DNA of 64,000 nucleotides. Source: Thermothielavioides terrestris NRRL 8126 (lineage: Eukaryota; Ascomycota; Sordariomycetes; Sordariales; Chaetomiaceae). Made by a program: the position numbers and the translations under genes. Position 1 is the stretch's first letter, and each line of letters begins with the position of its first letter. This document shows, one piece after another, positions 4,207 to 60,946 of this stretch. The notes beneath the pieces are model-generated. The model was not told the DNA's origin and made no database searches. It saw only the letters and a list, made by a program, of their open reading frames with translations. The stretch lies in the NCBI RefSeq assembly GCF_000226115.1, contig NC_016458.1, positions 5,862,001-5,926,000 of the forward strand. Reading direction: 5' to 3'.

Positions 4207-5020
4207 TGGACGCGCCGCAGCCTCCGGCGCCGCGTCCCTCCCCCACCTGCCGCTTCACCTTGCCCCAGGCGCTCGCTCCATCAGGTTGAACTGTAACTTC
4301 TCGTCGTGTCTTGCCTCCTTCAATGCTAGAATGGCTGGTCCCGTCTCTGGTGCGTTTCGAAATGCATCGAGCCGGGTTTGTTTGTGAGTCCCTGCCGACA
4401 ATCCAGATTAGGAACAAGACTGGGGTTGAGTTGGAGAGGATTGGTCGTTGAAATCCATCCTGGCCTTTGTCGCGTAAAGCCTAGGCGACTTTGAGTGGCT
4501 TGGCTCATTTTTTTCCTCGCGCCCTTTCATCCACTCCTGTCTGGCCGGCCCCATGTATCGCCGGCTCCGGATTCCTCTTCGACCCTATGCCGAACCATTA
4601 GCGCGCGATGTTCAACAACTCGAGCCTGGAGGAGCGACAACGTCACCCGCATTTCCGGTGTCAAGAGTTGGGTTTGAATTGTCGAAGGCAGCAACAGCAA
4701 GCCAGCCGATTGCAGACATCTGCCACCTCACTCGCCTCTTTATACACCACCGCAAATGCAAATGCGTGCGGTCCGTCCATCGCAGTCCCATGACTCCACG
4801 CCCCGCCCTTCCTCCCCACGTTCAAACCCAAACGCAACCCCCTCGCTGCCCAACCACCCAAGCAAGGAGCGGCACGCCGCGGCGTCATCCCCCATTCGCC
4901 GCCTTGTTTTACTCTGAGAGACTTGGCTTCAAATTGCTCTGCGTACGGATTGCACAGCATATGAAACATCCGCGTCGGGATACCCTCTCGCCTTGTTCGG
5001 GCTCCACCTCGCTCGCTTCC

Positions 5021-5059
<39 letters not shown>

Positions 5060-6148
5060 TCTTTTCTTTCCAAGTGGTGGGTGTCTTTTGCTATCAGCTC
5101 CGGGGAACTAACAGCCCTGGTTACAGCATCAACAACGGCGCCGAGCCCCGACTTCCAGGCCTTCTGGGCCTTCCGACAATCTCACTTCTCCCACTTCCCG
5201 TCGCGCTCATATCGGTCTAACGTGGCGTTGTCTTGATCCTTTCTTTCATCGAGTCTCCAATGTTAGACTACGAGCCACATGCCGGAGCTGCTGGCACTCT
5301 ACGGAGTATACCTATCCCTTCCTAGCGCACGGAACCGGGCGCGATGGATCCCACCGACAGTTGAGTCCGACAACCACAGAAGAAGAGTCCGAGCTCGGGT
5401 CTCACAGCTTCCCGAGCTCCCAGGAGCAGCCAACCTGATGTGGCCATTCGAACGAGACACCAGCTGCCGCAATGCCGCTGCCCGTTCCGAGGTCAGTAAA
5501 AAAAACAACTTGCATCAACTTCCGTGCTACGCGCAGTGCCGTACATATTGCGTAGGGTGATTGACTTCTGCTCTGCCACGAGTCTGGATGCGGCTGCCTG
5601 CTTCTCGTGAGGGTGGTTATCCCTTAGACAGCCGCTAACGTTAGCTGGGGTCCCATAAGCGGCAGGAAGCTGTCTTAAGTCGAAAGCTACCAGAAGGCAC
5701 GGGCAGACTTCCGGTCGATATGAAGCGGAAACTGGAGTCGGAGATAGGACACTAAAGCACCCCGGTGCCCGACACCTGTCGGGTGGAGGTCAAGCTGCAC
5801 CTTCCTAGTACCGTAACATTAGTATCACCCTCAGCAGGTTTAATGGTGCAGTGTAATTCCTTCGCACTTATGTAAGGAAGGTGCGAATCCCGTGTCGATG
5901 TTTCAAGTTGTCGCGGAGTTCGGTCTCTTCACCCACCCGCTACCGAAAGACCCCGTTAACCCCGCTGCTGCCCAGATGTCAGGCGGCCTGTAAGCAAATA
6001 TCAAGGTTCAAGCTCTTTGTGTTCGCCTTCCACGTTATCAGATAAATAGGACACACAATACAGTTGGTTTGGCAGCACATTCACACTTCGTCCACCTCCC
6101 ATCGAACATCTTCGGCTAGTTAACCCAGAAGTGCGAATCAAACCAAGC
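4207..6148. other. Intergenic region with a T20-A17 palindromic homopolymer
   Basis: About 1.9 kb without a supported gene between two plus-strand genes. The first part should hold the 3' UTR of the acidic-protein gene and the last part the promoter of the NmrA-like gene. It contains a T20 run followed at once by an A17 run. A small inverted repeat (TTCGCAC ... GTGCGAA) lies near 5861-5887. I see no tRNA or other RNA gene. Confidence 0.5.
5023..5059. repeat. T20/A17 homopolymer palindrome
   Basis: Twenty Ts (5023-5042) are followed directly by seventeen As (5043-5059). The sequence is self-complementary and could form a hairpin. It may be a true microsatellite, the junction of two retroposon tails, or an assembly artefact. 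Confidence 0.9.
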
Positions 6149-28429: not shown

Positions 28430-29471
28430 ATGTCTGAGCTCGCAGCTGCCGCTGGCGCCAGCTCACCTCCACGGTCTCCACCACTCGAACCTTGCGCAGA
28501 TGAGAACGAGGCAGCGAGGCGGTTCGCTCAAGCTGTCTCGGAAGACGAATTATGGCAAAGGAGCGAGCAGCGCCTGCCGTACGGCCACTTCGCTTACCCA
28601 ACCGACCGCCCACTTGTCTGGGTCAAGTTTGGAGAGCCTTGGAGGCTGGCCGAGGCCGACATGCAGAGGCTCGCCTGGCAATGGCTCCGCAGTCAACGCG
28701 AGACGAAGCAATGTAGTCCTGATATCCACGTTCCTGAAGTCTTCAGGACGTTTACCCGGGGCCCGCGGGCCTTCATTATCATGGAGCTGGTGGACGGGAC
28801 AGTGCTCGCCAAGTCGGTGTTCGCAAAGCCCATGGGTTCTCTTCACCCAGTGGAGCAGTGCTTCGACCTGATCGCCGAGGGAATTCAGGTGCTACGGCAA
28901 ATGCCCGTCCCTCCAGACGCGACACCAGGCCCGTATACGGCGGAATACGGGCATAGGATTATCAGGCATCCGATTTTCAAAGACCAGGCGGCTCGATTCG
29001 TGTACCGCGACGTCGACCAACTGGAGCGTCACCTCAACAAGGTAGGGTCCTGCATACCCAATCGAGCTCGAATCAGCTCTGTCCTTTCTACCTACTAACG
29101 CTGTTCGATAGGTCATCGCATGCCGATTCCCGCGCGGGGAAGCTCCAACACTTCATCTCGAGAGGCAGCTTGTTTTCTCGTATTGCGATCTGAACGACGA
29201 GAACTTCATGTTCAAGAGAGACGCTAACGGTCGTCTTCGCCTCTACATCGTCGATTTCGAGCACGCTTCCTTCCTGCCACTGTGCTTCCTCGCCTATGCC
29301 GTCCTACGGCACTCCCAATGGTGGAGCCAGCCGCCCATCGCCGAAAGAATCGGGGCCACATTCCCGGACACCAACCTCGACCTTCTAGGACACGCCGATT
29401 ATGTCTTCAAGGTTTTCGTCTGGTGTGTCGGACTTGAGAAGACGCCTACGGGCTGGGCCCTCCCGTCTTGA
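28430..29471 (+). CDS. APH-like (aminoglycoside phosphotransferase-fold) kinase protein
   Basis: Exon 1 is 28430-29041 and exon 2 is 29112-29471, with a 70-nt intron, giving 323 residues. The start MSELAAAAG is the only ATG near the beginning of the coding-like sequence. The kinase-like core is visible: AFIIMELVDGTVLAKS forms the hinge after the N-lobe; the catalytic loop reads YCDLNDENFMF, where the canonical first His is Tyr but the catalytic Asp and the metal-binding Asn are kept; the second metal site is IVDFEHASFLP. This places it in the fungal APH/choline-kinase-like superfamily, whose members phosphorylate small molecules or are substrate-less. The substrate is unknown. A decayed relative lies on the minus strand at 60122-60946. 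The hAT-like insertion begins about 230 bp downstream. Confidence 0.85.
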
Positions 29472-29707
29472 CTCTGTCTCGCTGCTGGGGAATCTTCTCA
29501 TTACCTTCCCAAAGGATTTTTTTTTTTTTTTTCGTTTACATTTCGGGGTTGTTGGTGTTCTTGCTCACTTGGAACTCCTGTTAGGACGTCCACTGCCAGC
29601 ACCCTGCACCGCTCGGCTTGAGGAGTTGCGGGGATGTGACTAGAAGCAGGGGCAAAAGTGTGTAGCACTGCTAGAAGAGGTCCAGTCTAGTGCGTCTGCA
29701 GAGTTTG

Positions 29708-29830
29708 GAATTAGTACAGTACTAATTAGTAGTACTAAAGTAGTACTAGACTAGTACTAGTACTAGTACAGGTCCAGTACTAGACTAGCCTAGTACTAGT
29801 ACTAGTCTAGTACTATACTAGGAAAATACT
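29708..29830. repeat. Left subterminal GTACTA repeats of the hAT-like element
   Basis: Repeated TAGTAC/CTAGTACTAG units occupy the left end. They match, in inverted orientation, the units at 46500-46615. Such subterminal arrays are typical transposase-binding regions of hAT elements. Confidence 0.7.
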
Positions 29831-29948
29831 AGAGTACTAATGAAATTTTAGTTACTTAAAATAACTAATAATGTATATAGTAATTTTCTTTGATTTTTTA
29901 GAAATATAAAAAGTATATATACTAGAGGTATTACTAATCGCTTAGTTC

Positions 29949-30197
29949 TATAACGTACTAGCCTTATAGCGTCTACAGATAAGCGTACAATGTTCTATTC
30001 AACTACCTTAAGGAAGGAAAAAGGAGAAGTATAGGCTATAGTCTCTACGTACAGAGTTTTTTAGGGGCTCGCGAAGTAGGTTCGGACCAACGTTATTCTA
30101 GGTATAAGGCAGGCCTACTATAGGTCCGTCCTAAGGCCGCTATAGATCCTAGGCGTAGCCCTATATATCTAGCCTAGGTATAGCCTAGTCTATAATA
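29949..30197 (-). repeat. Gypsy LTR (3' in element orientation)
   Basis: 249 bp, matching 44803-45051 over its full length. In element orientation it should start TG and end CA; both ends now carry TA changes consistent with RIP. It lies next to the polypurine tract. Confidence 0.88.
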
Positions 30198-30559
30198 TAC
30201 CCCCCCCGCCCTATTAGGCAGTTGAATCAGAGTATATATAACGCTATATCGAGCGTAGTTCAGGTCCGGTATAGCGCTAGTTATAATATATATTGGCACC
30301 TACTACTTAGTTGTATAGCGCTTACCTCGTTATTAGAGTAGCCTAACGTAGTTGCCTACTAAGGCTTTACCGCTTATAGTCGTCCTATTGCCTAAACTTA
30401 AGTTGTTTATTTATATCGCCCTAGTAAGTCGCTAATTAGCCTTTCCCTACTTTATACGTTCGTATATCGTAACTATATTGTACTAGGCGTACCTACTAAT
30501 TGTATACGACCTAGCCCCCTCTTATACTATTAAAACCCCCTTCTCCTCTATAAACTTTA

Positions 30560-32150
30560 TACCCTACGTTTTTATCTCGCTTCCAATATATACCCCTATC
30601 CCTCCTTTATATTCCTATCCTCTATCCTCTCTATATATTGGCTCTTCCTACTTCGTCTCTATCTTATACCCATTTCTCAACCTCCTTATATATAGCAATG
30701 CTTATATCGCCTATACTATTTTCATTATATATTCGTTCTACGCCCTATTAGTAATATTTATTATTTTTTTATATAACTGTTCTATATCTATAACGCTACT
30801 ACTTTAACTTTAATATAAACTTAATAAAAATCTACTATATACCTAGTTTATTCTTATAACTCTTTCTCCTTATATATACTTAGCTTCCTACTATTTCCTT
30901 TATATATATATCTTATATATATTTTATCTATTTGCTCTAACCTCTATAGTAGCTTTCTATTTTCTTTATAATAGCGATATATTTTTGAAATTTATCTACT
31001 TCGTCCTTGTCTATATCCTTTAGAATATTAGCTATAGTCGCTTTACTTAGTAGTAACGAAGAGGGACGTTGTCTTAGAGGAGACAACAACTAGGACTATA
31101 ATATATATTATCCTTTATTAGGCCCGTTTTAGCTCTAGGCTAGAAGCTAATAGTATCTTAGATAAAACTACAATAATTATAATAACTCCTTTCGCTATAC
31201 TATTGACGGCTATATTGTCGAAGGCAACTTAGATAATAAGGATAACGCCCTTCCTAAAGAGGAAGGGGATATCTACCTAAACTACGTTAAGTAGCTTATA
31301 TATAGTAACTTCGTTAAATATATCTAAAGATATAGAAAGAGCTATATAAAGTATACTAAGTCGTACGCTAAATACTACTAGGATTTAGTACTCTAAGCGA
31401 CTAACCCCTCTCTATACGTTAGCTTAAAATGCCTAATTAAATTCTATATCAACAATAAAGCTATTATAGAGCCTACTTATAAGAAAACTAAAACTAAGCT
31501 AGCTTACTATATTATCTTAAAGGCGCTATTTATCGCCTTTATATATAGCTTCTATAATACAATTAGTATAGCCTTTATATACTAATCCCTAGTATACTTT
31601 GCCTTCGCCTCTAATATACCCCTAGTCACCTCCTCTACATCTTCGACCCTAAACTAGCGAGGAGCCCTAGTTCTATACTAGGCTCTTTAGGATAATCTTA
31701 CTATATAGTATTATAGTCGCCTTATTAAGTATATAGTACAATATCTTAATTCTTTCTAATAGGAGAATCAGCGTATTGCGAAAGCTATCTATACTATAGT
31801 ATAGTCTTAAGTAACCGTCCTTAAGACGAATTTACGTTTTATAGAGTATATTATTATATTTATTTCCCCTTCGCCCATCTATACCCTTTAGGGGTCTTGC
31901 CTCTGCTACTTACCCTATATATATATATCCCTCTACGACCTATACTATAGACGACGCCTATCCTCCCCTATAGAGGACGTCTTATATACCTATTAAACGT
32001 ATATACCGCCCTTGCCTTATACCCTTTGTACGCCTATTCCGCCCCTATATATACCCGCCCCGCCTATATACCTATTTAAGGATAAGGAGAAGAACCTACT
32101 AGATATAGGACCTATTATAGAGCTAGAGTAGATAGCGCCGTTTATACGTT
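30560..32150 (+). pseudogene. Coding-like frame antisense to Gypsy pol, in the extra 3' segment
   Basis: Between the end of Gypsy pol and its 3' LTR lie about 2 kb. On the plus strand, opposite to pol, a pyrimidine-rich stretch (30560-30720) is followed by a frame that reads as protein broken almost only by TAG/TAA. Examples from about 31190 onward are DGYIVEGNLDNKDNALPKEE, then YIKYTKSYAKYY and KCLIKFYINNKAIIEP. The absence of TGA stops fits RIP of CAG, CAA or TGG codons. I do not recognise the product. Limits are approximate, and an accessory gene captured by the element is only one explanation. Confidence 0.35.
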
Positions 32151-32199
32151 TTATTGTCTTTTTATATATAGCTACGTTCTATTTAGTTTTAAGAGGATA

Positions 32200-35100
32200 A
32201 CTAGACTTAAATATATTATAGTTTTTCTACATCTAGGTAGTTATATTTATCTAAGTTATTAGTCTTTATAAGGTAGTTTATATATAAATATAACGTTTCC
32301 CCTTTCTCCTTTAGTTCGATACTAGCCTATCGTTGTACTATGTATTTCCCTATTCCTACTTAAACTCGTTAAGTACAATAGTATCTAAGAAGTTCTCTAA
32401 GGGCTTCTATATTAGTTTATTGTAACCTATCTACTTGATATATATATTGTAGTTGTTTCTTCTCCCCTTTACGTTCTAAGCTTTAAAGATTACTTCTACC
32501 CTATACTTTTGCTAAGGAATACCCTCTTCCGATATAACCTATACAAGGTCTAGTCGCTTATCTATAACTTTCTATAAAGAGAGTAGGTCGGAGGCTACTC
32601 GCTTAACTAGGTCAATATAGAAGGTTAAGTATAGGCTACTTAGTATATTGAACGTCACTGTTAAAGAGGTAGGCACTATAACTACCTTATATTTAGCATT
32701 TAGCTAGTTAAGCTTCTTACTAAAGCGGTTCGTCTTTATATTATATAAGGAGAGCTATACTTCGTCCTTAACCTAGAACTACTTAGCTAGACGATAAGAG
32801 CAGTTCGTATTCGCCTAATACTACTACTATATATATACAATAGCTACTTAGGTCTACTCTATTCTCTTCTTTAGATAGTGGAGGAACCTAGTAACATAGT
32901 CTTCTAGGGAGGCTATAGGCACTATTAGAATTGTAATAAATTATATAGGACTTATATTAAACCTATAGAGGAGGTAGTTCGAGCTTACTCTAGTTATAGA
33001 CAAGTCCCTATTATTAAACGTAAACTAGTAGGCTAAGAGATATTTAAGCTAGTTGTACTATATAAAGGAAATGAAGATCTAGAGGATCGCCTATACCTCT
33101 TAATTAACCTACTCTATCCCTCTATTTATCTAAGGATAATAAGACGTCGATAAGAGCTACTCTACCCCTATCGCCTTATATAGTATAGTCTAGAACCTAT
33201 TTAGCTAGTCCAATCTATAGTTGGTTATAATTTAAGTTAAGAACCTATAGAAGCGCTATTATACATTATAGAGCTAAAAGGTATACTTTTCTACTCTTAT
33301 TAAATATATTGCTTCGAGCTATATATATTTAGAGAGGTAGTTGATAATTACTATAAAGTAGCTAAGCGCCCCTTTATCCCTTATAAAGAGGTTGGTTATA
33401 AAGTTAATAGAGATCTATTTCTAAAAGCGATTAGGGATAAGCAAAGGTTATAAGAGCCTTTAATATAGCTATCGAGAGATCTTACTCCGACAATATTAAT
33501 TATAGTTCCTAATAAACTACTTTATATCGGACAATATAAAGTCCTAATAATAATCTCTCTAAAGTATTTTAAATAGCCTATTATACCCTAGGTATCCTAA
33601 TATAGCTAAGTTATAGATCTACTAAATAATTATAGTAGTTAGAAGCTCTTATATAGGGAGCTAGAGATAGCTATAGAACTAAAGTACACTTTATATATTA
33701 AGGGAGTAGTCTATAATCTAGGTCTATACTATATTCGCTTCCTTTAGAAACTTCTAAGCCTTATTATAAACGGCTTAGAGCTAGTAAATATAGTACTTAT
33801 CTCTAATAATACCCTTATCCTATAGGGCAATAAGCTATTTATCTTCGAAGAGCGTCTCTCCTATAGATAACCTAGCCTCCTTCTATATATTAGTCTAGTA
33901 TACTTTGATCAGAGAAAGCAACTAAGCGATATACTAGCTATCTTTAGGCTCGTCCTATTTATACTAAGAGAGTACATTAGGGCGTAAGGCCTAGGATCCT
34001 AGCTAGTACTTTAGCTCGAAGTTAAATAGAGAGAGCATCTCTATCTATTAGGCCTATTGTTTACTAATTAGATATAGCTAGGTAAAGTACTTAAGGTTCT
34101 TATAGTCGATTAAGATAATAAAGGGGGCTACTATACTTTAGAGCTCTATTAACTAGGCCTTAAGGTAAAAGATAATAGTTAGTAGCTCCTTATTATAGAT
34201 AGTATAGTTATATTTAGTAAGGCTTAGCTTTGTAAAGTAGTAGGCTATAGGGTAGAGAACCTCGTCCTCTCTCTACTAAGACAAATACCTACTAAGTGCT
34301 ATATCGGAATAGTCTACTTCTATAACTATCTCCCTCTTAGGGTCCTACTAGACGAGGATTAGCTCTAATATAAATATAGTTTTAAACGTATTAAAAGCTT
34401 CCTATTCCTCTTTACCCTAGTGGAATAGGACGTTCTTATAGGTAAAGCGTATTAGTAGAGCCACCTTTTTAAAGAAGTTAGAGATAAAATTGTAATAGAA
34501 ATTAATAAATCTTAGGAAGCTTTATACTCCTTGGACCTTATAGGGCGCCTCCTACTTATAGATAGCCTTAATCTTCTTAGGGTCAAGGCGAATATAGACC
34601 TTTACCTCTACGATATACTCTAGATATTTAACTTCCTTTACTACGAATATATATTTCTTAAGGTCTAGGTTAAGGCCTATATCCCTCAATCTTCGAAGGA
34701 CTTTATATACCTTCCTTATATAGTCCTTTTAGCTTCTACTTAAGTATATTAAAACGTTGTTAAGATATACCGTTATATAGTCTCTTAACGTTAGACTAAG
34801 AGCGTTGTTAATATATCTCTAGAATGTTATAGGAGTATTTATAAGCCTAAAGGGGTAGACTAGCTATTTAAATAGTTTAAACTTTATATAAAACGCTATA
34901 AGGTACTTGTCCCCCTTAGCTATCTAGATATAGTAGAATATAGCTCTAACGTCTAGCTTTATAAGCTATTTAGCTCTAGCTAAAGACTAAAGAGTTTTTT
35001 TAATTAAAGAAAGTAGATACTAATCTTACTTAGTAATCTTATTTAAGGCTTAGTAGTCTATATAAAACCTTTATCCTCCTCCTAGCTTCTATATAAGAAG

Positions 35101-36990
35101 GACTAGGGCGACTACTAATAAAAAGCTTACCTAGATCTATCCCTTATCTAATAGGTCTATAACCTACTTCTAAATCTCTAGAAGGTAGTCCCTTAGTATA
35201 TTATATAAAGGTCCCTATAGGAGCTTAGAAGGTTTTTCATCTAGGCTTATCTTAAGACGGATATAATAGTCGGCCTCCCCCTAATAAAGGGGTAGGCTAT
35301 TCGCTTTCTCTTTGTCGAAGAGGTCGGCGAAGTTATATAGCTCCTTTAGCAGGGCGACCTTCAGGTCTAGTTTAGTATCGGGCTAGGAGATGGCTACTCC
35401 TAGTATAATAGTCATCTTGTAGATACTAGTGACAAGGAACGTATCTTATACCCCTTTAGACTTCTTCCTTTATATCCTATAGGCTATACCTATAAATACT
35501 ATATCTATAACTAAGGTAATATTGGTTTTCTTCCACTATAAGGAGCATTTATATACTTATAGGCCGCTTTATAAATTAATAGTAAAGACTTTATTAGCTA
35601 GGTCTAGTATAATCCTATAGTAGTTTATCTAAGGAAGCTCTAATATAACGTTATAGGCTAGCCCTAGGACTATATAGAATATAGTAGTACTAATCTACCT
35701 ATTGATATCTATTGTAATATAGGTAATATATATAATTTTCTTTATAATTTATACCTCTTTAACTACAATACCTAGGGTATAAGGAGTTAGTAGGCTTATC
35801 TACTCGATCTCTAACCTCTAATATACTCTTTCGCTAATAGCTCTATAGCTCTAGTATCTACTATCTACTTATATATTTATAAAACTAAAGGAGTTTAAGA
35901 AAATAAAGATAAGAAAAGGGGGCTTATCTATTCTCTCTCTAATCTCTAAAACTTATTCTATAAACGGCTAAGTCCTTTTAGCCCTTATATAAGACTTTAT
36001 ATAAAGGCTACTCTTTTCCCTCCTCCTCCTTAGAAGGGGAGTCCTCCTCTATCTATTCCTTAGCCTCTAACTTATTAATATTAACCTAAGGAGTTGGTCT
36101 CTTAGCTAAAGCGAAGGGATAGGTAGCTACGAAGTAGCCTTAGCGTCTATAATAGATATAGGCTCTAGCCTATTAATATACTATATATACTTTGTTGTTT
36201 ATCTACTTCGCCTATAGTACGTTTATACCTCGTTTTCCTCTGTTCTACTACTACTTTCCTCTACGACCTCTATTAGCTCCTCTCTAGGCTAGGGCAGTAT
36301 AGGTTATATTAATCCTAGTTATCGATATATCTCTATCTATATTCTTCTCTATATCTATATTAGGCCTAGGTCGCTTACTCTAGAACTGTTAGTGTTGTTC
36401 TTTTAAATAGAGGGCCTCTAAGTCGATAGCGATCTTATAGTACTTTACAATAGCTATAGTATAGTCGTTCTATAGGACCCTCTATCCTACTATAATATAT
36501 TTCAACTTTAGAGAGAGGTATCGTTATAGTCTAATAAATCGTATTTCGTTGCTCTAATTAAGTCCTCTAGTCTTCGATAGCTTCACTTTAAAGTAAACAA
36601 TAAAAGAGGAGAATAGCTCGTTGTCTCCTTAGTAGAATATATCTAGCTCCGTTAAAGCTATAACCTATTTATAAAGGTCTATATAGACTATCGAGAGATA
36701 CTTAAGAAACGCTCCTAAGTTATAGTTGTAGCTAGGTTCTTCCAACTTATAGAAGGCTACGACCTTAGCTTAGACCCTTTAGCTAAAGTTCTTCTAAATA
36801 AATATCTATTAGTCGTAGAGGCCCCTAATAAAGTCCTAGTCTACTACTAGGACGTATACTATTATAGCCTTCTAGGTAGTAAAGAGCTCCTTTTTACTAT
36901 CGAAGGGTTGTCCTATAGAGAGGCGCTTCTACTATATCTAGGGAGCTACTAAAGCTATAGCGTTAGTTGTTAGAGCTAAAGCGTTAGCTA
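32200..36990 (-). pseudogene. Gypsy gag-pol remnant
   Basis: Minus-strand order is gag (about 36950-36250, with FFSSFIVYFKVKL-like sequence shown as LFSSFIVYFKVKLSK), a protease region (about 36000-35400), reverse transcriptase (about 35250-34700, YLNNVLIY box), RNase H (about 34400-33700) and integrase (about 33500-32300). The domain limits are estimates. Many in-frame TAG and TAA codons replace Gln and Trp, as produced by RIP. A C-terminal chromodomain, common in fungal Gypsy elements, could not be recognised. Confidence 0.75.
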
Positions 36991-37044
36991 TTGCAAAGGT
37001 GTTTATAGTCTAAGCTATAGTAATCTAGGCTATACAAAGTTCTT

Positions 37045-37226
37045 TGTCGTATGCTAGTGCACACGTGACTCTATCTACTAGGCTCCCTACGCTCAAGGGG
37101 CATATGTCAGCTCTGCCTATATATATATATAGACCTCGGCGCTCCTCCCACCTAGCTTAAGAGGAGCACCTCTCTCAATACATATACCTCTGCATCCTAC
37201 ATAGCCCCACTTCGCTACTCTTCTCA
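37045..37226 (+). repeat. Copia 5' LTR
   Basis: 182 bp, TG...CA ends, with a TATATATATATATA stretch and the segment GGCGCTCCTC near its centre. It matches the 3' LTR along its length. Confidence 0.93.
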
Positions 37227-37403
37227 GTTATAAGCCTGGTTCATATACAACACTTATAACAGCGGTATAGCCTAGTTGGGGCTATCCTTCTTCTTTTCTC
37301 TAACAACCACTTCCAGTTTTCTCGATCGTCAACAACTCCTATAAGTTTATATCACCCCTATCGTTTAGTCTAAACAACGTAATATACCTCAGTTTACTTT
37401 AAG

Positions 37404-40400
37404 ATGATACTCGAAACTAAGAAAACCGTCACCGTTGCTGTTATAGCGTTTCTAACCCTTGATAGCTCTAAGGACTAGCTGAGATAGATCTCTATTGTTC
37501 GCTAAGAGGCTAACAACTTATATGTCTAGCACATTATCGACCTAGACACCGAGCTCGCTACCGAGACTAAGATACTCGGCCTTTCTATATAGCCTACCTA
37601 GGGTATAGCACGTTAAGCGGTCTAGGACCACTATCTTTAGGCGTAGTACACTGCACTATAAGCCTAGAAGGCAGCCAATTCTACTACCTATGGCGAGGAA
37701 CCTCAGTCAACCAATCCTATTAAGGAGGAGATCCGCTATAAATTCCTTAAGCTATATAAGGCGTTCTCGAAGTCTGCTATCGACATTATAGCGTTCTATA
37801 CTATCAATAAGCTCTATAAGATGATCAACGTGTCTATTAGCAACCACTATATATATACTGTATACGATATTATAGAGGCCAAGAACATCACTAATATACG
37901 TAGGTTTATATAGATGCTATATAAGATTATTGTACCCTCCAATAGCGCTACTTTCACTATATTTACCGAGGAGTACATAACTGTCTTTACTAGAGGTAGC
38001 TAGAGCGGCGTCGAACCTAGGACCTAGATTCTCAAGTATATATCGGTCCTCTATCGTATAAAGGCGGCCAATATCGCTATAGTCACTGATGTAATAGCCG
38101 TTACCACATTCCTCAAAACTATACAAAGACGCTTAGATCTAAAGTAGACGACTTATATACTAAAGGATATTAATATAACTAAGAAGCTTAGTAGCAAAGG
38201 ACCAACCCTTCTCAACTTAGCTCTCTTATTCGAGGCGATCCTCTAGACTAAAGCGGTGGTCTACCTAAAGCTTAGAGCCTACCCTATACTTCTAGGAGCG
38301 TAGAACAGTCAGAAGGGTAGTTAGAAGCGTAAGAAGAACTACGACTACCTATATAAGCTAAAGACTTTTTGCTATTAGTAGTTTCCCTCGGAATATCGGC
38401 AACTTCGGTATACTCTGATAGGGGAATCCCTAAACAGTGTAACGCTCCTAAACGACGTAGTAAATACAGTACGCTAACGATTCGCCAAGGAGCGCTAGAA
38501 CGACCTTCGAATAGAGCTTTAGAAGCTTAGTTAGAAGATCTAGAATATATTGTTAAACGCTAAGACCACTAGTTCTAATAGTAGCGTAGGTCCTTCATTT
38601 CTAAAAGCGCTCTAGGTATACGCTATTATCGACCTAGTGATTATAAATGAGCTTGAAGGTATATATAGCGTATTTGTATCTCTTGAGTTTAGCCTATACC
38701 TACTTAGTAAGTACATTCTATTTGACAACTGTAGGGCGGTCAATCTTATTAATAATAGGGCTCTCCTTGTCCCTAGTACGTTCGTCAAGACGAGCGGTAA
38801 GACTATTGAGGTAGGCACTATATCCTTCCTAATCTCTAGCTATAGTAAATAGATCATTAAGAACGTTTTAAACGACATATATAGCCTAGACACTGAGGAC
38901 CTTGTCATAGACAACGTTGCTATCGTCGAGGGCTTTTACGTCAATATTGTCTCTAAGAGACGCCTTCGAGCGTAGGGCACTTGGTACTATAGTCTAGATT
39001 ATATACTACGTTAAGGAACTTTAGAGAAGAGTATTGTACTTAGGCAACTAGTCGAGAAGTTCAACCTAACCTTCTTATAATACAATGCTCTTTCCTCCTA
39101 CTCTAATGCCCTTTGGGTACTCCCTAGAAGCTTTGCTAGACTTATAACTATAAGCGCTATAGTTATAAAGAACTTTGGGAGGAGCAAGCCCTCTAAGGAC
39201 CTACTCCTAGAGAGAGAAGACCTAGCTACTCTCTAGTATATTAGATCTAGTTATCTAAGTTCAGAGGCGTTAGAACATCTCGTCTTAAACACTAGAGGTA
39301 TATAGATTCGTAGGCCTCGTAGGCTAGAATACAAGGTATATATATAGGTATATGTAGAATAGGTTATTTTACGCCGCTTACTATCGAAGCTATTACTACA
39401 CCTATTTTAGAGGGTCTCTTAGGACCTATTCGACTTTCCAAGGGCACTTGACGGCTCGAACTAGCTACTAGTCATCAAGGACAAATATAGTAGGAAGCTT
39501 TTTACAACTCTACTTATATATAAGACGTACAATAGTATATACAATAAGCTCGTCCACTTTAAACGCTAGGTGAAATGCTAATTCGAGCTATCTATCTACA
39601 AGATTAGGTAGGATAGCGACACTAGTGTCATTAGTATCAAGGGATATATAGTGTACGAGCTTTGGGCGTAGGAGTAGGGCATCGACTTAGAGGTTACACC
39701 TTCGGATACTAAGGAGCTCAACGGCGGTTTAGAACATATAGATAAAGAACTTATTATAAAGAGCCTTGCAATACTTATAGGTACTAGACTTCCTTAGAAC
39801 CTATAGCTAGAGTCGACGGTTATAGCTATATACTTGTATAGTATAAGCCTAAGTCGCATTTATAACTACCGTTTACCAAACGAGGTGCTCGACTCTTAGT
39901 TTAGACACTAGTTTCGCTAGTATTAGCCTAATCTTATATATTCCCTGACTACCAACCTATACTTTAACTAGGGTAGCGTTTATATATATAGCTACTAAGC
40001 GTACCTACTGACGAAGGAATACGAAAAGGGGATTGAGAGGTATACTAGGAAGGTTAAGCCTAGAGTATATATTGGGTATCTTATTGGATATAGGGCGTCC
40101 AACATTTATTGTATCTAGGTACCGAAACTTAGGAAGGTTATTACAATATACAATGTAACCTTTAACGAACGTATATTCTACTAAGAGGGAGAGGAGTAGC
40201 TTGATATTCAATTGGTAGTAGTCGTTAGAAAGGTTGTTGAACTTATCGAACTCCCTATAGAGCCTTAGGACGCTAAGGCAATGCTGTTTAGAGTTATAGA
40301 TACCTATAAAGACCTAGTGACGGTTCCTAGCTCTCTAGGACATCTAGGGGGTATAACTGAATAGGAATTGGAAGGGTAGGCTCCTCCCTACTCTCTATCT

Positions 40401-42773
40401 TGTCTAGGGGGTATAGAAGTATTTGAGCATCGTAGCTAGAGTTCGGATAAGGAGCCTACTAATAGTCTTTATACTCTAGAACCAACACCGGAGCCGCGCT
40501 AGGAACGCCTAGACGGTTTTAGAGGGAGCGGCCCCCCTACTAATTACAGTACTAGCAATGACAGTAGACTAGTAGGAACTGTATTATCGGAGGCCTTTAA
40601 TACAGTTATCGGAGACGCTAATAGTAGTGTCGCTAGCGGTACAACTAGGAGTACTAGCTAGGGCAATACAACGGTAAATGCTACTATAGTCGATACTCCT
40701 AGTAAGGAAGAGGAGGTTGACCGCCCTAGCGATTAGCTAGAGGCTCTAAACGACTAGGAAGACGCCTTAAACTATAGTTCTTAGCCTAATTCTAGAACAC
40801 TCGTAGCTATACTAGTAAGGGAGAAGCGTAAATATATACGTAAGGTATATAGACCACCAACTCGTTACTTAAGACGGATCTGTAGATAGTCTCCTAGTGG
40901 CGGTATAGGCGGAAGTAGCGGTCTAGTGTACTTTGTAGCCCCTATATACTATAAGGAGAGTATCGATGTACCAGATTAGTATATATAGCATTCGTTTAGC
41001 TATACATTTTTAGATAACCCTATAATCGCTTTATAGAAGGGCGACAGTATCTAGTACTATATATTGTATATAGTTTTTATAGCGGTAGTCCACCAACATT
41101 GTAATACGTGTCCTAGGGCAACGCTAAGCAGGCCCTAGGTACATTTTAACGACCTTACTAAGCTTCCTAAACGCTAGATGGATCTCGCTAACTACCCTTA
41201 AGGGCCTAAGTTCATCAAAGCGGCTAAAGAGGAGATTCGTAATCTCGTCAATAGGAAGATATAGCGTAAGATTCGACGTAAGACCTTTAAAGGAAGACCA
41301 CTCCCTCTAAAGTAGGTTTTCGTCTATAAGTTCGATTAAAATAGCAACCTCGAGAAGTGTAAGTCTTGTATCTACGTTCAAAGCGACCTTTAGGAGCTTA
41401 CTACTCTATAAAGCACTTATATAGCTATATTTATAGCGTGCTCGTTCCGTATAATAATAGCTATCGCTACCTAGTTTGATCTTAAGGTTAAGCAGTTTAA
41501 TATAGCGTAGGCATTCTTGAATATAGACCTGCCTAAGGGTGTTGTTTATAAGATGCCTAAGGGGTTCGAAGAGCCTAGATTTCTTATAGAACTGCAAAGA
41601 GCTCTATATAGCTTATAAGAGTCTCCGTTGCTCTAATACCAAGAGTTCTCCAATATACTTCGGAAGCTTAGCCTTATAGCTTCGTCTAAGAAGCTATACT
41701 TGTTCTTCGACCGCCAATGGCATATACTTATACTGTTCTATATAGACGACTACCTAGTCTTCTACTATAGAGACTATACGAAGATAGCTCAGAGGATCAT
41801 CGACGCTCTAAAAGCGAAGTACAAAGTGTATAAAAAGGGGGATATAGCTTAGTTCCTAGGTATTAGGGTAATCTACGACTATATACAACGTAAAATCTAG
41901 CTCTACCTTGACTAGTATATCGAGAAGATTGTAAAGCGCTTTGATCTTATAGATCAAATCACCTTTCCAAGTATCTCTCTCCCTATAATAGAACTCTATA
42001 AGTTCACTAGCACTGCCACTCAAGCGTAGATCAAGCTATTCTAGGAGCTTGTTAGATCGCTACTCTACACTATAGTTGTACTGTATATAGAGGTCGTATT
42101 CCTAGCATCGTTGCTCTCGTACTTCCTGACGAACCTCTTAGAGATATACATTGATACTACAAAGTATATAATCTTCTACCTATTTAGTATATGCTTCCTC
42201 GCTATTTAGTTCAGGGGTATACTATAGGATGCTGCTTCTATATAAATCTTACTTATTGTAGAGGACGCGTTGTATATGGATGATCCTAATATACGTAGGT
42301 CGTTACAAGGCTATCTCATCTCTTTATTTGGTAGGCTCGTTCATTGGAAGGCTATACACTAGGATATAGTCACTACCTCGTCTATAGAGGCGGAGCTCCT
42401 CGCTTTGTCCACTATAGCGTAGAAGACAATGGCGTTTAAACGTTTCCTTAGCAACCTATAACTTGAGCTAGGTATACCTTGGACTATATTCTATAACAAT
42501 ATATAGACTATCCGGCTTATAGTAGAAGAGAACGAATATATTAGTACTTACCTACGTTATATTGATATCTACAATATATAGCTACATTAGAAATATATAA
42601 AGGGATCTTTCGAGGTCGTATATTTACCAACTACTAAGATACCTATAGATAGGCTTATAAAGGTGTTGACTCACTAGAAGTTCGAGCACTTTAGGGAGCT
42701 CCTTAACCTATAGGATATACGTTATATAGTATAGGGAGACGATTAAAGGGATAGGAACGTAAGGCTTAAATAA
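37404..42773 (+). pseudogene. Copia gag-pol remnant, frame length intact, stops from RIP
   Basis: From the ATG at 37404 to TAA at 42771-42773 the frame is exactly 1,790 codons, so no net indel has occurred. It is broken only by internal stops where Gln or Trp is expected. Recognisable parts are a gag start (MILETKKTVTVAVIAFLTLD), integrase (about 39200-40200; ELNGGLEHIDKEL and the closing GYLIGYRASNIYCIWVPKL), reverse transcriptase (about 41170-42000; KFIKAAKEEIRNLV, FDLKVKQFNIA, LPKGVVYKMPKGFEEP and the active site LFYIDDYLVFY) and RNase H (about 42230-42720; SSIEAELLALSTIA). The catalytic Asp pair of the polymerase survives. RIP of CpA explains the TAG/TAA codons. Confidence 0.9.
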
Positions 42774-42859
42774 AAATAAACTAAATATAGAAGTGTATAC
42801 CAATGTAAAATAGACTAGGGGGTGCCTATACCTATAAAACAATAAACAACAACGTAGAA

Positions 42860-43780
42860 CTACTTACTACCCTTCTTCTTCTTAGGAGTTATAGTAGCTA
42901 GCACCGTCGCCGCTATACTATACGCTAGTGCCTCTAGGTCAAAGCCCAGAGCAGCCTCCTCCTTACTCTTATCCTTATCCTCGTCCTCCTCCTTACTCTC
43001 CTCCTTCTTAGCCTTCTTAGACTTCTTAGTAGGCGTGGCCACCTTTGCCTTACCCTTGCCCTTGCCCTTAGTAGGCATAGGCGTACACTTGTCGTTATCG
43101 TCGTCGTTATCCTTAGCGTTAGCGTCCTTACCCTCTATAGCGAAGAAGGCGTATAGGGTAGTATATAGCGTCTTCTAGTTCTACTATATATAGTTAGACT
43201 AGCTCTTTTCCTTTATCTTTTTATTTATATTTACAAGATTAGGCTTAGGCTCCTAGCGCCCTTATATTAGGGCTAGGAAGTGCTTAGTAGTAGGGAGTAT
43301 ACTCATAGGACTAATTCATTAGTACTATATACCTTAGAACTATATTGACAAACTTATATAGAGCGATACTTCTTGCTATATATACAGTGTATGTACTAGG
43401 CCACTTTACTAGGGGCCTCCTAGCACTCCCTAGAGCTCTTATTGTATATAGCGGACTTTAGGCAACCTAGGCAAGGCTACTCTTTTAGGGCACCCTCCTC
43501 CTCCTTATCCTCCGAAGAGGAGGAGGAGGAGGAGGGGGGCGCTATACACTTGGAGAGGGTCTTCGGTATAGCAAAGGTCTTGCTATAAGTGTTAGAGACA
43601 CGGATATATACGCCACGCCAATTAGGCAGATTATAGTGTATTCACTTCTTACTAGCGCTAGCGCTAGCCTTAGTGGGGGTAGCTAGGAGTAGGGGAGGCT
43701 TGTTCTTAGCCGCTTTAGCGGCGTAGGCCTTCTCGAAAGCGGCAAGGCGAACAAAGGACGATATAGTTGTTATTGTTGAT
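42860..43780 (-). pseudogene. Antisense accessory gene carried by the Copia element
   Basis: Opposite to gag-pol, the segment before the 3' LTR has a coding-like minus-strand frame. Its 3' 72 codons are intact (start MPTKGKGKGKAKVATPTKK at 43078, stop at 42860) and encode Lys-rich, then Glu/Asp-rich, then AALGFDLEALAYSIAATVL. Upstream, broken by a few stops, come RLAAFEKAYAAKAAKNK, IPKTLSKCIAPP, an acidic Ser run, and a Cys-rich block (PCLGCLKSAIYNKSSREC followed by YIHCIYSKKYRS) that looks like a degenerate zinc-binding unit. A Lys-rich tail plus Cys block suggests a nucleic-acid-binding protein. It could be a captured host gene or an element-specific accessory gene. The start of the full frame is uncertain (about 43780 or beyond). 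Confidence 0.55.
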
Positions 43781-44411
43781 ATTGTTGTTGTTGCTAATAC
43801 TACTACTATTGCTCGTAGTCTATAGAGGAAGAGTTTAGAAGATAGTTTAAAGCGTATTCACTATAATTAAATACTTCTAGGAGTATAGCTATCGACTAGC
43901 CTATAGCACTACAGTATTGTCTATATAGCGTAAATACAACAATGGATAGCAATGGTAGATATACATTTAAGACGTTGAGCAACAATAGCTATAATAGTAT
44001 ATATACGAATGATCGTAATGCTCAATTACGCAACCTACACCTATAATCGAGGCGGCACAATTCAAAATACACGCCTAAATAGAGGATAGGAATAAAACGC
44101 GCTACGTAATTGGGAACTATATACAATACGATCAATGGCGTTTACAACAATGCCAACGATAGTGCCCTTAAATATCAACTTTAGCCCCCCTAGGTCTAAC
44201 TATATTCAACGCAATATACAATTCGCCAACGTATACGCTACAACGCTTATACAATAGCGTATAGACAGCTTGTACAATGGCGGCGGCTACGCGCAATGGT
44301 AGAATCAATACCGGAGGCTATAGTTCAATGCGCCTAGCAGTGCAAGCTCTAGAGTCAGTGCCTAGTATACGTGTTCTATAGACAGCCTCCTAAGAGTCTG
44401 TCTAGGGGGTA

Positions 44412-44593
44412 TGTCGTATACTAGTGTATACGTAACTCTATCTGCCAGGCTCCCTACGCTTAGGAGGCATATATCAGCTCTGCCTATATATATATATAGA
44501 CCTCGGCGCTCCTCTCACCTAGCTTGAGAGGAGCACCTCTCTCAATATATATGCCTCTGCATCCTGCATGGCCCCACTTCGCTGCTCTTCTCA
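44412..44593 (+). repeat. Copia 3' LTR
   Basis: 182 bp, preceded by the purine tract CTAGGGGGTA and followed by the target duplication TTCTT. Differences from the 5' LTR are almost all CA/TA or TG/TA. Confidence 0.93.
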
Positions 44594-44802
44594 TTCTTTA
44601 ATAGTTATATTCTAATATACAATCGTTTTCTATAGGAGCTAGAAGTGTTTATAGACCTAATCTAGATCTAAGACCTATAGGACGCCTAGGTTGTTTATAG
44701 TAATGTCTAGTCCGCTTAGTATCGACGTTGAGATGCCTAATATACTACTTTCGTCTATATCTAAAAGCAATAGCTACTCTATCTATATAAAGGTAGTTGA
44801 AC

Positions 44803-45051
44803 TATAATGTACTAGCCTTATAGCGTCTATAGATAAACGTATAATGTTCTATTCAACTACTTTAAAGAAGGAAAAAGGAGAAGTATAGGCTATAGTCTCT
44901 ATATATAGAGTTTTTTAGGGGCTTGCGAAGTAGGTTTGGACCAACGTTATTCTAAACGTAAGGTAGGCCTACTACAGGTCCGTCCTAGGGCCGCTATAGA
45001 TCTTGGACATAGCCCTATATACCTAGGCTAGGTATAGCCTAGTCTATAACA
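44803..45051 (-). repeat. Gypsy LTR (5' in element orientation)
   Basis: 249 bp, matching 29949-30197. It is followed on the plus strand by the target duplication AGTTC. Confidence 0.88.
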
Positions 45052-45250
45052 AGTTCTAGAAAATTAAGTACAAAGGTAAAGAACTTTTAGATATTTAAAA
45101 TATAGAGTATAATAGTAATAATATATAATATTTTTAAGACTTTATTAACATTAATATTATTTTAAAATACTTTAGTAAAAGTTGCTATATAGTATCTATT
45201 CTATTATAGTAGTTATAATGCTTTAAAGTTGAGTACTAATTGAGTATTTA

Positions 45251-45425
45251 AAGTACTAGTCTAGTATTAAAAGTACTAATCTAGTACTAGAGAATACTAA
45301 TCTAGTACTAAAGAGTACTAATTTAGTACTAGAGAGTACTAATCTAGTATTAGAGAGTACTAATTTAGTACTAGAGAGTACTAATCTAGTACTAGAAAGT
45401 ACTAACTTAATACTAAGAAAGTAGT
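45251..45425. repeat. Tandem array, about 21-bp unit (TCTAGTACTAGAGAGTACTAA)
   Basis: About eight imperfect copies, inside the right part of the hAT-like element. The spacing alternates between AATCTAG and AATTTAG versions, as expected after point mutation of an initially regular array. Confidence 0.85.
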
Positions 45426-46185
45426 ATAAAATACTTTATTATATAATATAAATAGCTAGAGTATAATATATAAGACGAGTTTAAAAATAGCTGTCGTATA
45501 GTATATAGAGTGCTCTTAGCCTTTATAGGGCAAGGATATCCTTTTACTCATTGTGACAATAGCTTATTACAATGTAGCATAGAGCATTGTAAGCTACTTT
45601 GAAAGCATTCTTAATAGTATACTAAGCTATTTTATATTAAGTACTATATATAGTACCTAATATATTAATTAGATCTATTGATTAAGATATACAACTACCT
45701 TCTTTTCTTTATTATATATCTATAGTTAGATTCTTATAAATATAATTTATTATATATAATACTCTATTGCTTAGACTATTTAATAAATCCTAACCTAGCT
45801 ACTTTAAGAATATAATTTTATAAAATATATATTAAGTTAATAGAGTTTTAGATTATAAAGTTAGCTAGTAAGATATTTGCACTATAAAAATAGTTTTTCT
45901 TACTTTTCAAACGCTTTTAAGCCTATTTTCTTACTACTCTTTATATACTTAGATATAAAAGCTATAAGCTATTGAGGCTTATAAATAAAATATTATATAG
46001 CTATACTATTATAAAATATAGTTAAGCTATGTATTTTATTTCAAAGAAATATTCTTCTTATTACTTAATATATCTTTATTATATTTACTTAGGAGAAGGT
46101 AGTATTTTTAAATATCATTTATACACTTATTTTTAAATATAGTAAAATAAGTTAATATAGAGGTTTTAAACTACTTTAGTAGATC

Positions 46186-46480
46186 TTAGATAATATTAAA
46201 ATAGTGCTAAAGTAATATTAAAATAATGTTAAAGTAGTACTAAAATAATATTAAAGTAGTACTAAAATAGTACTAAAATAGTACTAAAATAGTACTAAAA
46301 TAGTATTAAAGTAGTACTAAAGTAGTACTAAAGTAGTATTAGTGTAGTACTAAAGTAGTACTAAAGTAGTACTAAAGTAGTACTAAAGTAGTACTAAAGT
46401 AGTACTAAAGTAGTACTAATGGTACTAGAGTAGTACTAAAGTAGTACTAAAGTAGTACTAAAGTACTATAAGGTTAGTAC
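46186..46480. repeat. Tandem array, about 11-bp unit (AGTACTAAAGT)
   Basis: More than twenty copies of AGTACTAAAGT/AGTACTAAAAT, the right subterminal region of the hAT-like element. Each unit contains the palindrome AGTACT. Confidence 0.88.
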
Positions 46481-46685
46481 TAAAACAGTACTAAAATGCA
46501 CTAGTATTTTACTAATTACTAGCCTAGTACTCTAGTACTAGTACTGCCTCAGTACTATACTAGTCTAGTATAGTACTAGTACAGGGTCAGTACTAGACTA
46601 GTACTATACTAATCCAAACTCTGTGCGTCTGTGTAGGTTCGGCCCGTTGGGCCGAAAGCAACTTAAGCATAACCAGGGATCCAAG

Positions 46686-51322: not shown

Positions 51323-52567
51323 GGCGACAGCCAGCAGACACTGGACGATTGCGTCTGGCGGGGAGAGTTGGGGGGTGGTAGGCCTCGAGGGTGCGAGGAA
51401 GAGGAGCGTCGGGCGAGGAAGGTCAAGGTGAGGACGGTACAAACCCTCGTCCAAGGCCCAATATATGGACAAACACGGGAGGAACGATTCCGGGCTGTGC
51501 TGCCGTTACTCGGCTGGGTGGTCTCGGCCGCGGCTGCACCCGCTGACGGTGGAACTGGGCGGCACCGGACGAAGATGCGGCGGTGACTCGGTCCAGCGGG
51601 TTGAATCAGAGCACCAATTCTGAGCAATACCGCGCAATATTGCTACCGCGGCGTGTTTGCTTGTGAGGTTGCTTCGCAGCCGCGTCGGGCTCGTCGGCGC
51701 GGCAGGTGCTCAGAATTGCGGGCGAACAGGCTAAAGCGGGCAAGCATGCACCGAGATATGCATGTGCTCAGCGGGATAGTTATCAGCTGCGGACGCAGCT
51801 TGCCGTTGCCATGTTCGCCGTTGCGTGTGCCATCGTCGACAATCGCAGATGCGGTGGGTGGTTGCGGTTGCCAGGTCACACGTTGGGATCCGAAACGGAG
51901 GAAGCAGTTGGCCAGCGGCGCGAGGCCCTGGGGAGGCACAGCTATTTCAGATCGGCCAGCTGCTGCGCCGTCGAAAATGCGAGCTACTGTATGGATCAGG
52001 TGTGTTATTAATGAGGCAGTTAACTACCCTGTTGGTGCTGAGAAGGGGTAAAAAGGCTTATTGATGGTGCCTGTCTGGGGTCTGGGCCCTGACAAGGGCC
52101 GGGGGGTTCTTCGCTGATAAGCACGCTCAGTGAAGTTCGCTGCGGCCTCCGCGGAGAGCGCCCCACGAGGAAACCAAGTGCATGCATGTTGTCGTGTATC
52201 ACAATGGCTTTGCTGTTGTCTCACGTGGAGTCCGCTGTCACAACCTCGCCGATTGCCGAGCGCAAATGGCTCTTCTGCGAGGTCTGCGCCCCCCAGGGCT
52301 TTCCGTCAGCTGTGGCGGACTGTTGTTGACCACATGCAAAGTTCTCGGCATCGACCTCGCGCCTGCATGCATCTGGCCGACGTGGCTTAGTTAAGGTACA
52401 CTCGGCACCGCGATCTGGTTGGCTCAATCTCACGACTTGCCAAAACCTTCTTCCGTCATTTCCTTGTCCCTGGAGCACGTTCGGGATGTGGCGGCGCAAC
52501 CAGTCCGCCATTGGACCAATTAATTCAGCAAGCGATACTATTTGGGCCGACGCGATGGGTCGGTGAC

Positions 52568-60121: not shown

Positions 60122-60946
60122 TCAACCTATTGTCTGATCACTTGGTGGGCCTTGAAGAAACCCCGTGTACCGTTCCGGCCGCTGGGACACGTCATGCACA
60201 ATCTTCATGACCTCCAGATTGCCCCTAGGCAGCGTGTGGCCGATCCTCTTCATCAGCGGCTCGGCCGTGATCCAGCGTCGCACCGAGCTGGCCTCGACAA
60301 GCAGGGAGTACGCGAGGAAGCTCGTGGGCAGGAACGACGCGTGCTCAAAGTCGAGGACGTAGAGGTGCAGGCGGCCGTCGGCATCCGTCTTGAACAGGAA
60401 GTTCTCGTCGTTCGGGTCGCAGTAGCAGAACTGAGGTCAGCTCCTTTTCGAGCTGGACTGTGGGGAAAGGAGGTTTCCTCCCCATTCTGGCCGCCTGATG
60501 ATTATTCAGCATGGTCAACGTTGCAATTGCCTGTCAAGCGTCGGTAGTACGTATGTAAACTGAGGACTTACCAGATTGATATGACTCTCCAGCACCTCGA
60601 CACTGCAGTAGGTACACGGGACTCGTGGTTGTTGAACAGCTGGTGCATGATTATCCTGCCTTCCATATCCTCCACGTAGCGACCGGACGAGGCATCCTGG
60701 GGCACCGGCACGCGGCGGAGCAGCTGTATGGCGTCGGCGATCAACGCGAATTGCCGGTCGCGCTGGCGGCGACGCTTGACTCGGCAAGCGGATCGGCGTC
60801 CACCACCAGCTCCATGATGATGAAGGCCTGCCCGTCACGGCGGAATATCCTGTAGACCTCCGGGACGTAGATGTCGGAGACCTCCTTACTGCGCAGCCAC
60901 TCCCACGCAAGCCGCTGCATGTTGCCCTCAGCCTAGGCAAGACGCC
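60122..60946 (-). pseudogene. Decayed APH-like kinase paralogue
   Basis: The minus strand carries clear relatives of the kinase at 28430-29471: MQRLAWEWLRSKEVSDIYVP against MQRLAWQWLRSQRETK; RDGQAFIIMELVVDADPLAE against RAFIIMELVDGTVLAK; and DPNDENFLFKTDADGRLHLY against DLNDENFMFKRDANGRLRLY, then VLDFEHASFLPTSFLAYSLL. The copy is broken. A TAG stands at 60933-60935 in the place of an Arg/Leu codon. The frame shifts after ASATG (about 60770), again after NNHESRV (about 60620), and again before the FCYCD loop. The N-terminal 70 residues are missing. The catalytic loop is YCDPNDEN. The intron and its flanks are also eroded. No RIP stop pattern is evident, so ordinary decay is likely. It ends at the TGA of 60122-60124. 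Confidence 0.85.

Follow-up and report, generated by a model that had tools for sequence, protein, structure and literature searches.

How did the AT-rich block at positions 29691-46631 of a 64,000-nucleotide stretch of the genome of Thermothielavioides terrestris NRRL 8126, a thermophilic soil fungus, come together, and in what order did its parts arrive? The stretch, hereafter the window, is C2:5862001-5926000 of an assembly of 36,912,256 bases in six contigs. We find that the block is a nest of three transposable elements, a hAT-like element with a Gypsy element inside it and a Copia element inside the Gypsy element, left by three successive transposition events, and we put the probability of this reading at about 95%. 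Exact target duplications of 8, 5 and 5 bp stand at all three levels, beside ends that were defined independently. The outer element is flanked by TGCGTCTG (29691-29698 and 46624-46631), which occurs once more in the window, at 51350; the Gypsy element is flanked by AGTTC (29944-29948 and 45052-45056) and the Copia element by TTCTT (37040-37044 and 44594-44598). These six copies had been claimed by an earlier sequence-only reading of the window, and on re-reading each matched exactly at its coordinates.

The remaining anatomy, also directly observed, fits the same arrangement. The long terminal repeats (LTRs) had been described as pairs of equal length, 249 and 182 bp, which alignment bore out: the Gypsy pair is approximately 90% identical and the Copia pair approximately 91%. 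Removing an inner element together with one copy of its duplication restores the element outside it, as had been proposed, leaving a Gypsy element of 7,549 bp and an outer element of 1,817 bp. Three other Gypsy LTR pairs in the genome span 7,547-7,548 bp, comparable to the restored Gypsy element of the window.

Protein domains agree with the names of both inner elements. The Copia element occupies 37045-44593 on the plus strand, with its 5′ LTR at 37045-37226 and its 3′ LTR at 44412-44593. Its internal region (37227-44411), which is degraded by repeat-induced point mutation (RIP), encodes an SH3_retrovirus match (residues 939-985; E = 1.6e-5; 25.2 bits against a curated cut-off of 27) followed by RVT_2 (residues 1357-1579; E = 1.9e-18), and the latter bears out the Copia label; no match to the integrase core was obtained in the Pfam scan of this degraded region. 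The RVT_2 domain behind an integrase-side SH3 match, the 5-bp duplications and the LTR pair are those of Ty1/Copia elements, although the T. terrestris family differs in having two cohorts, one RIPed and one un-RIPed. The Gypsy element spans 29949-45051 on the minus strand, the strand of its reverse-transcriptase frame, with the 3′ LTR at 29949-30197 and the 5′ LTR at 44803-45051. Its degraded internal region (30198-37039, minus strand), scanned in the minus frames only and with stops read as X, contains RVT_1, RT_RNaseH_2 and RT_RNaseH in a single frame (Pfam E = 3.2e-12, 5e-15 and 2.1e-11). This succession of RVT_1 and RNase H upholds the Gypsy label and, with the 5-bp duplications and LTR pair, resembles Ty3/Gypsy elements; unlike them, the heavily RIPed window copy yielded nothing matching an integrase when 30198-37039 was scanned in its three minus frames at E 0.1. 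Five-base duplications recur elsewhere in the Gypsy family, exact in five and matching at 4/5 bases in one of the six copies whose LTRs could be paired.

Sister copies of the Gypsy element show the Copia insertion site still empty. The Gypsy piece that remains between the Copia element and the LTR (44599-44802, minus strand) is contiguous with 36745-37044 in nine other Gypsy loci. This was seen by comparing the joined site (300 + 204 bases with one TTCTT) with 28 Gypsy LTR loci: nine of the ten that match align across the site in one piece, eight without a gap and one (L039) with a single gap. The tenth, L037 (C2:7343473 region), is interrupted 8 bp beyond the Copia site by an insert of approximately 745 bp, which is solo-LTR-like (TGTTAAAC...TCTCAACA) and carries its own duplication, GTTGC. 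The other 18 loci had no match to the joined site; all of them represent the other LTR, from which the 1.5 kb that was fetched falls short of the site. The empty site reads TTCTT in L022, L031, L035, L039 and L042, and TTCCT in L016, L024, L025 and L029, as it does in L037. Were C the ancestral base, the T seen in the two window copies would be older than the Copia insertion, although this is a hint only.

Could the nest be an artefact of assembly, joining repeats that lie apart in the chromosome? Gypsy and Copia elements are high-copy here and of the kind that is prone to mis-joining. Yet exact duplications at three levels would not arise from a mis-join, and the assembly is described as telomere-to-telomere in a passage of PMC8176577. 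We therefore consider an artefact very improbable. Two further Gypsy copies appear by their length to be nested as well. One, C2:7327110-7343719 (16.6 kb, exact duplication TTACC), contains a Copia match together with the insert of L037; for the other, C3:4272933-4293445 (20.5 kb, exact duplication GTGCT), the insert or inserts were judged by length. Thus, nesting is not unusual in the NRRL 8126 genome.

The outermost layer required a different kind of evidence, namely its ends. The outer element occupies 29699-46623 in full, in a left part (29699-29943, plus strand) that begins with the terminal inverted repeat (TIR) CAGAGTTTGGAATTAGTACAGTACTA and a right part (45057-46623, plus strand) that closes with the right TIR. 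hAT-like termini and an 8-bp duplication had been reported, and both are real; the inverted ends are longer than had been stated, reading CAGAGTTTGGA[A]TTAGTAYAGTACTA over approximately 25 bp with one indel and one transition. In the whole genome this exact pattern is present four times, at the ends of two elements, whereas a reversed-pattern control gave none. Chance inverted repeats, which the sequence-only reading had named as one way in which it could fail, are thereby ruled out. The 10-mer CAGAGTTTGG has a further occurrence in the window, at 18416.

The second element with these ends lies at C5:3422532-3425734 on the minus strand, is 3,203 bp long and has an 8-bp duplication of its own, GCCCTTGG. 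It is the only other member of the family that we found. An un-nested twin of 1.8 kb had been anticipated; none was found, as DNA searches of the genome returned this longer relative, with its different interior, and nothing else of the kind. These searches skip very common words, such that degraded fragments could escape them. They also gave a 65-base match, at 82%, on C6:202512.

The two copies are closely alike at their ends, with two differences in the first 144 nucleotides and one in the last 124. Inward from there, 13/94 positions differ (9 of them transversions), then 90/357 (46 transversions), after which there is no clear homology; the clear homology thus comprises the ends and approximately 350 bp adjoining the left end only. 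Conserved ends around unlike interiors are expected of non-autonomous elements that are mobilized by a common transposase. In the right part of the window copy are 21-bp and 11-bp tandem arrays in which the palindrome TAGTACTA abounds. The palindrome is present 7 and 26 times in the two parts of this copy, and the C5 copy has 18, compared with first-order Markov means of 0.7, 2.2 and 1.9; it is absent from the 47 kb of window outside the block, which is far more GC-rich. Plant hAT transposases bind short subterminal repeats. As RIP converts CA to TA, the palindrome may owe some of its form to later mutation. Within the C5 copy (in C5:3419001-3429000, at approximately 4440-5605, minus strand) we noted open stretches joined at GT...AG sites that resemble introns, and a single C2H2-like motif, WHCNRKDCKRLFNTKRDLKRH; the copy had no Pfam match, and the conceptually spliced product of the main predicted piece had 22 candidate homologues, none at E 0.001.

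The ends of both copies begin with CAGAG, and short inverted ends of the CAGNG type are present at all four. Such starts are typical of hAT elements, and 8-bp duplications accompany 2/2 copies. Five degraded Dimer_Tnp_hAT domains, all with in-frame stops, also exist in the genome (C6:3202714, C6:3275226, C5:3742007, C1:6189256 and C4:4186050). These features argue against an origin in another superfamily, such as KDZ/Zisupton or P-like elements, which also give 8-bp duplications. The lack of a Pfam domain and the form of the target sites, described below, speak for such an origin, which we regard as unlikely. The termini and duplications suggest that the outer element is hAT-like, and this part of the original label stands.

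Several observations weigh against our reading of this layer. A six-frame Pfam scan at E 0.1, with stops read as X, detected no domain, and hence no transposase, in 45057-46117 or anywhere along the C5 copy, so that the outer element can be at most a non-autonomous hAT member. The hAT target preference is nTnnnnAn, which neither TGCGTCTG nor GCCCTTGG fits. As weaker evidence, the genome has 14 exact CAGAGTTTGGA sites (9 for the reversed-pattern control) and no Dimer_Tnp_hAT relic, of the five, is found inside 5 kb of one, although ends altered by RIP would escape such a search. A further point concerns the empty site of the Gypsy element. The C5 copy runs through the Gypsy site (29935 corresponds to 3503 and 45059 to 3519), and this spacing leaves room for exactly one AGTTC, but the copy is only approximately 75% alike there and does not keep the letters AGTTC, so the evidence is the spacing. 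Moreover, the empty sites concern the two inner insertions only. No transposase source with the same ends was found near the exact CAGAGTTTGGA sites, a search subject to the same limit of RIP-altered ends. The outer element shares with non-autonomous, Ds-like hAT elements its CAGAG-type inverted ends, its 8-bp duplications, ends that are conserved around different interiors and an abundance of short subterminal repeats; it differs in its dense TAGTACTA palindromes, in having two copies found and in lacking a transposase source that we could find.

The nesting itself dictates our order of arrival, first the hAT-like element, next the Gypsy element and last the Copia element, and the empty sites of both inner insertions, observed directly in sister copies within the same genome, agree with the order that had been proposed.

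All three layers carry RIP. The TA/AT ratio is 1.22-2.75 inside the block, compared with 0.62 and 0.68 in its flanks, and on both sides the change is sharp at the boundary of the outer element: across the left edge (29698/29699), the counts per 100 bp change from 16 to 5 for CA+TG and from 4 to 23 for TA, and on leaving the block at the right edge CA+TG goes from 6 to 13 and TA from 23 to 6. The changes are C>T on both strands, with a CpA bias, and stop at the element boundary. Depletion measured as (CA+TG)/(AC+GT) is strongest in the outer element (0.19 and 0.22) and the main part of the Gypsy element (0.22), followed by the Gypsy LTRs and small Gypsy piece (0.25-0.36) and the Copia element (0.50), which is the order expected from age, though the starting compositions differ. 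By this index the Copia LTRs alone are undepleted (1.1 and 1.5). Dating the layers by LTR identity is ruled out because all of them carry RIP and nearly all differences are of the RIP type. A passage of PMC6709928 lists both RID and DIM-2 for T. terrestris.

The Copia family made it possible to read RIP against unmutated relatives. Scoring the best 40 of 90 candidate places in a search with the Copia LTR gave 30 loci, comprising the two in the window, one other RIPed copy (L045), 24 that form 12 complete un-RIPed elements and three that are unpaired. Relative to the un-RIPed cohort, 637/645 substitutions in the nested Copia element are C>T or G>A (315/317 on the 5′ side and 322/328 on the 3′ side, plus one 9-bp gap). 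The changed sites are 346/527 CpA, 220/547 CpG, 27/514 CpC and 44/455 CpT. Every 150-bp bin, apart from one empty bin at an end, holds C>T and G>A changes intermingled, which suggests more than one round of RIP. The eight differences that are not of the RIP type, in approximately 3,350 aligned positions (0.24%), include six on the 3′ side, three of which are common to the nested element and L045; these two RIPed copies therefore descend from a lineage of the Copia family that is slightly older.

The un-RIPed copies, in turn, are nearly uniform. All 12 are identical over 1,682 nucleotides on the 5′ side, and of 14 loci compared over 1,680 nucleotides on the 3′ side, nine (reference included) are identical and five have one common C-to-A difference. 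Such likeness could partly reflect assembly finishing; the C-to-A variant common to several argues against all copies having been filled from one sequence. This near-identical cohort (L047-L073, on C1-C5) coexists with RIPed copies in a species listed with RID. A search with 1.5 kb of internal Copia sequence, in which the best 40 of 59 candidates were scored, returned the window, the un-RIPed cohort (17 matches at one identical score, one just above and one just below) and 20 other matches at 81-89%; as these were ranked by likeness to a RIPed query, the proportions are biased.

Where the young Copia copies landed bears on why nests form. All 12 paired un-RIPed copies have exact 5-bp duplications, and the flanks of 11 are AT-rich (27-41% GC) with a TA/AT ratio of at least 1.4 over 500 bp. 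The remaining copy (L066/L067) has flanks of 63-69% GC, with 45-46% in the nearest 100 bp. We estimated the AT-rich share of the genome at approximately 17% from window flanks of 57-60% GC, RIPed DNA of approximately 36% GC and a GC content of 54.7% given for the strain in a passage of PMC8176577. The chance of at least 11/12 insertions in AT-rich DNA is 3e-8 at a share of 17%, 8e-5 at 35% and 0.003 at 50%. The outer flanks of all 28 Gypsy loci examined also have a TA/AT ratio of at least 1.2, although the Gypsy copies are older and their flanks may have mutated after insertion.

One possible explanation is that RIP makes old elements AT-rich, and probably heterochromatic, that Copia prefers such DNA and that nests grow where RIP has acted; on this view the pair of cohorts would be the trace of a burst that followed the strain's last RIP-competent sexual cycle, and the nested copy would be a member of the earlier cohort. 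We hold this tentatively, at slightly under even odds. The landing of young Copia copies in AT-rich, RIP-like DNA may thus explain the nesting. Alternatively, insertion may be random, with AT-rich blocks simply being where insertions survive without targeting, since in a haploid, gene-dense genome those in genes would be lost. The single young copy in GC-rich DNA fits this second explanation, and the AT-rich share on which the calculation depends is only an estimate, whereas the probabilities given above for 11/12 copies speak against it at any share considered. Preference and survivorship are both possible; we rate survivorship as doubtful without being improbable, and note that it competes with a landing preference and not with the nest itself.

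Taken in order, the history would have begun when a non-autonomous hAT-like element of approximately 1.8 kb landed, duplicating TGCGTCTG, about 0.2 kb downstream of the gene THITE_2087957; we infer that its transposase was supplied from elsewhere, by a source not found in the genome now. A 7.5-kb Gypsy element would then have integrated into it, duplicating AGTTC, and a 7.5-kb Copia element into the Gypsy element, 204 bp from the Gypsy LTR, duplicating TTCTT. Then, or in between, RIP would have turned CpA to TpA through all layers, halting sharply at the outer boundary.

The neighbouring gene lies clear of the block. The product of THITE_2087957, whose record lists PF01636, is 99% identical to a frame beside the block across 75% of that query; residues 1-309 of its 319 align to 28430-29053 and 29112-29426. 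The gene (28430-29471) is uninterrupted by the block and stops approximately 0.2 kb to its left. A second, diverged match to it lies at 60206-60932 on the minus strand, with 47-60% identity.

Nested clusters with RIP, and RIPed and un-RIPed copies side by side, are already known in fungi. Passages of a report on the finished Mycosphaerella graminicola genome describe 78 nested transposable-element clusters, RIP with CpA bias, one 47-kb nest with a 5-bp duplication and a copia family with minimal RIP (PMC4522978). The T. terrestris nest is like these in having LTR elements inside other elements and CpA-biased RIP; unlike those described there, it is built on a low-copy hAT-like DNA element, and its own genome holds the empty, single-copy sites of the two inner insertions. 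In Podospora, a fungus of the same order, crapaud LTR elements likewise include RIPed and un-RIPed copies together, according to passages of PMC10787394; host and element differ, and the un-RIPed T. terrestris Copia copies are identical or one base apart over 1.7 kb. The titles, abstract openings and passages that we consulted contain no account of this locus and no detailed account of T. terrestris transposons, and the passages of a study of fungal Copia elements (PMC5445492) name the species only in the reference list. The nest is therefore a well-supported new example of something ordinary in fungi, albeit an unusually clean one, and where the young Copia copies land is a mildly interesting side result.

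As a worked example, the locus fixes the order of three events, with both inner sites still empty in sister copies. It also illustrates that LTR identity is no clock where RIP acts: the LTR pairs here are 9-10% apart, whereas the comparison of the nested Copia element with its un-RIPed family, over approximately 3,350 positions, holds only the eight non-RIP differences. The lead that it offers is a genome in which one element has both RIPed and un-RIPed cohorts and in which young Copia copies land mostly in RIP-degraded DNA.

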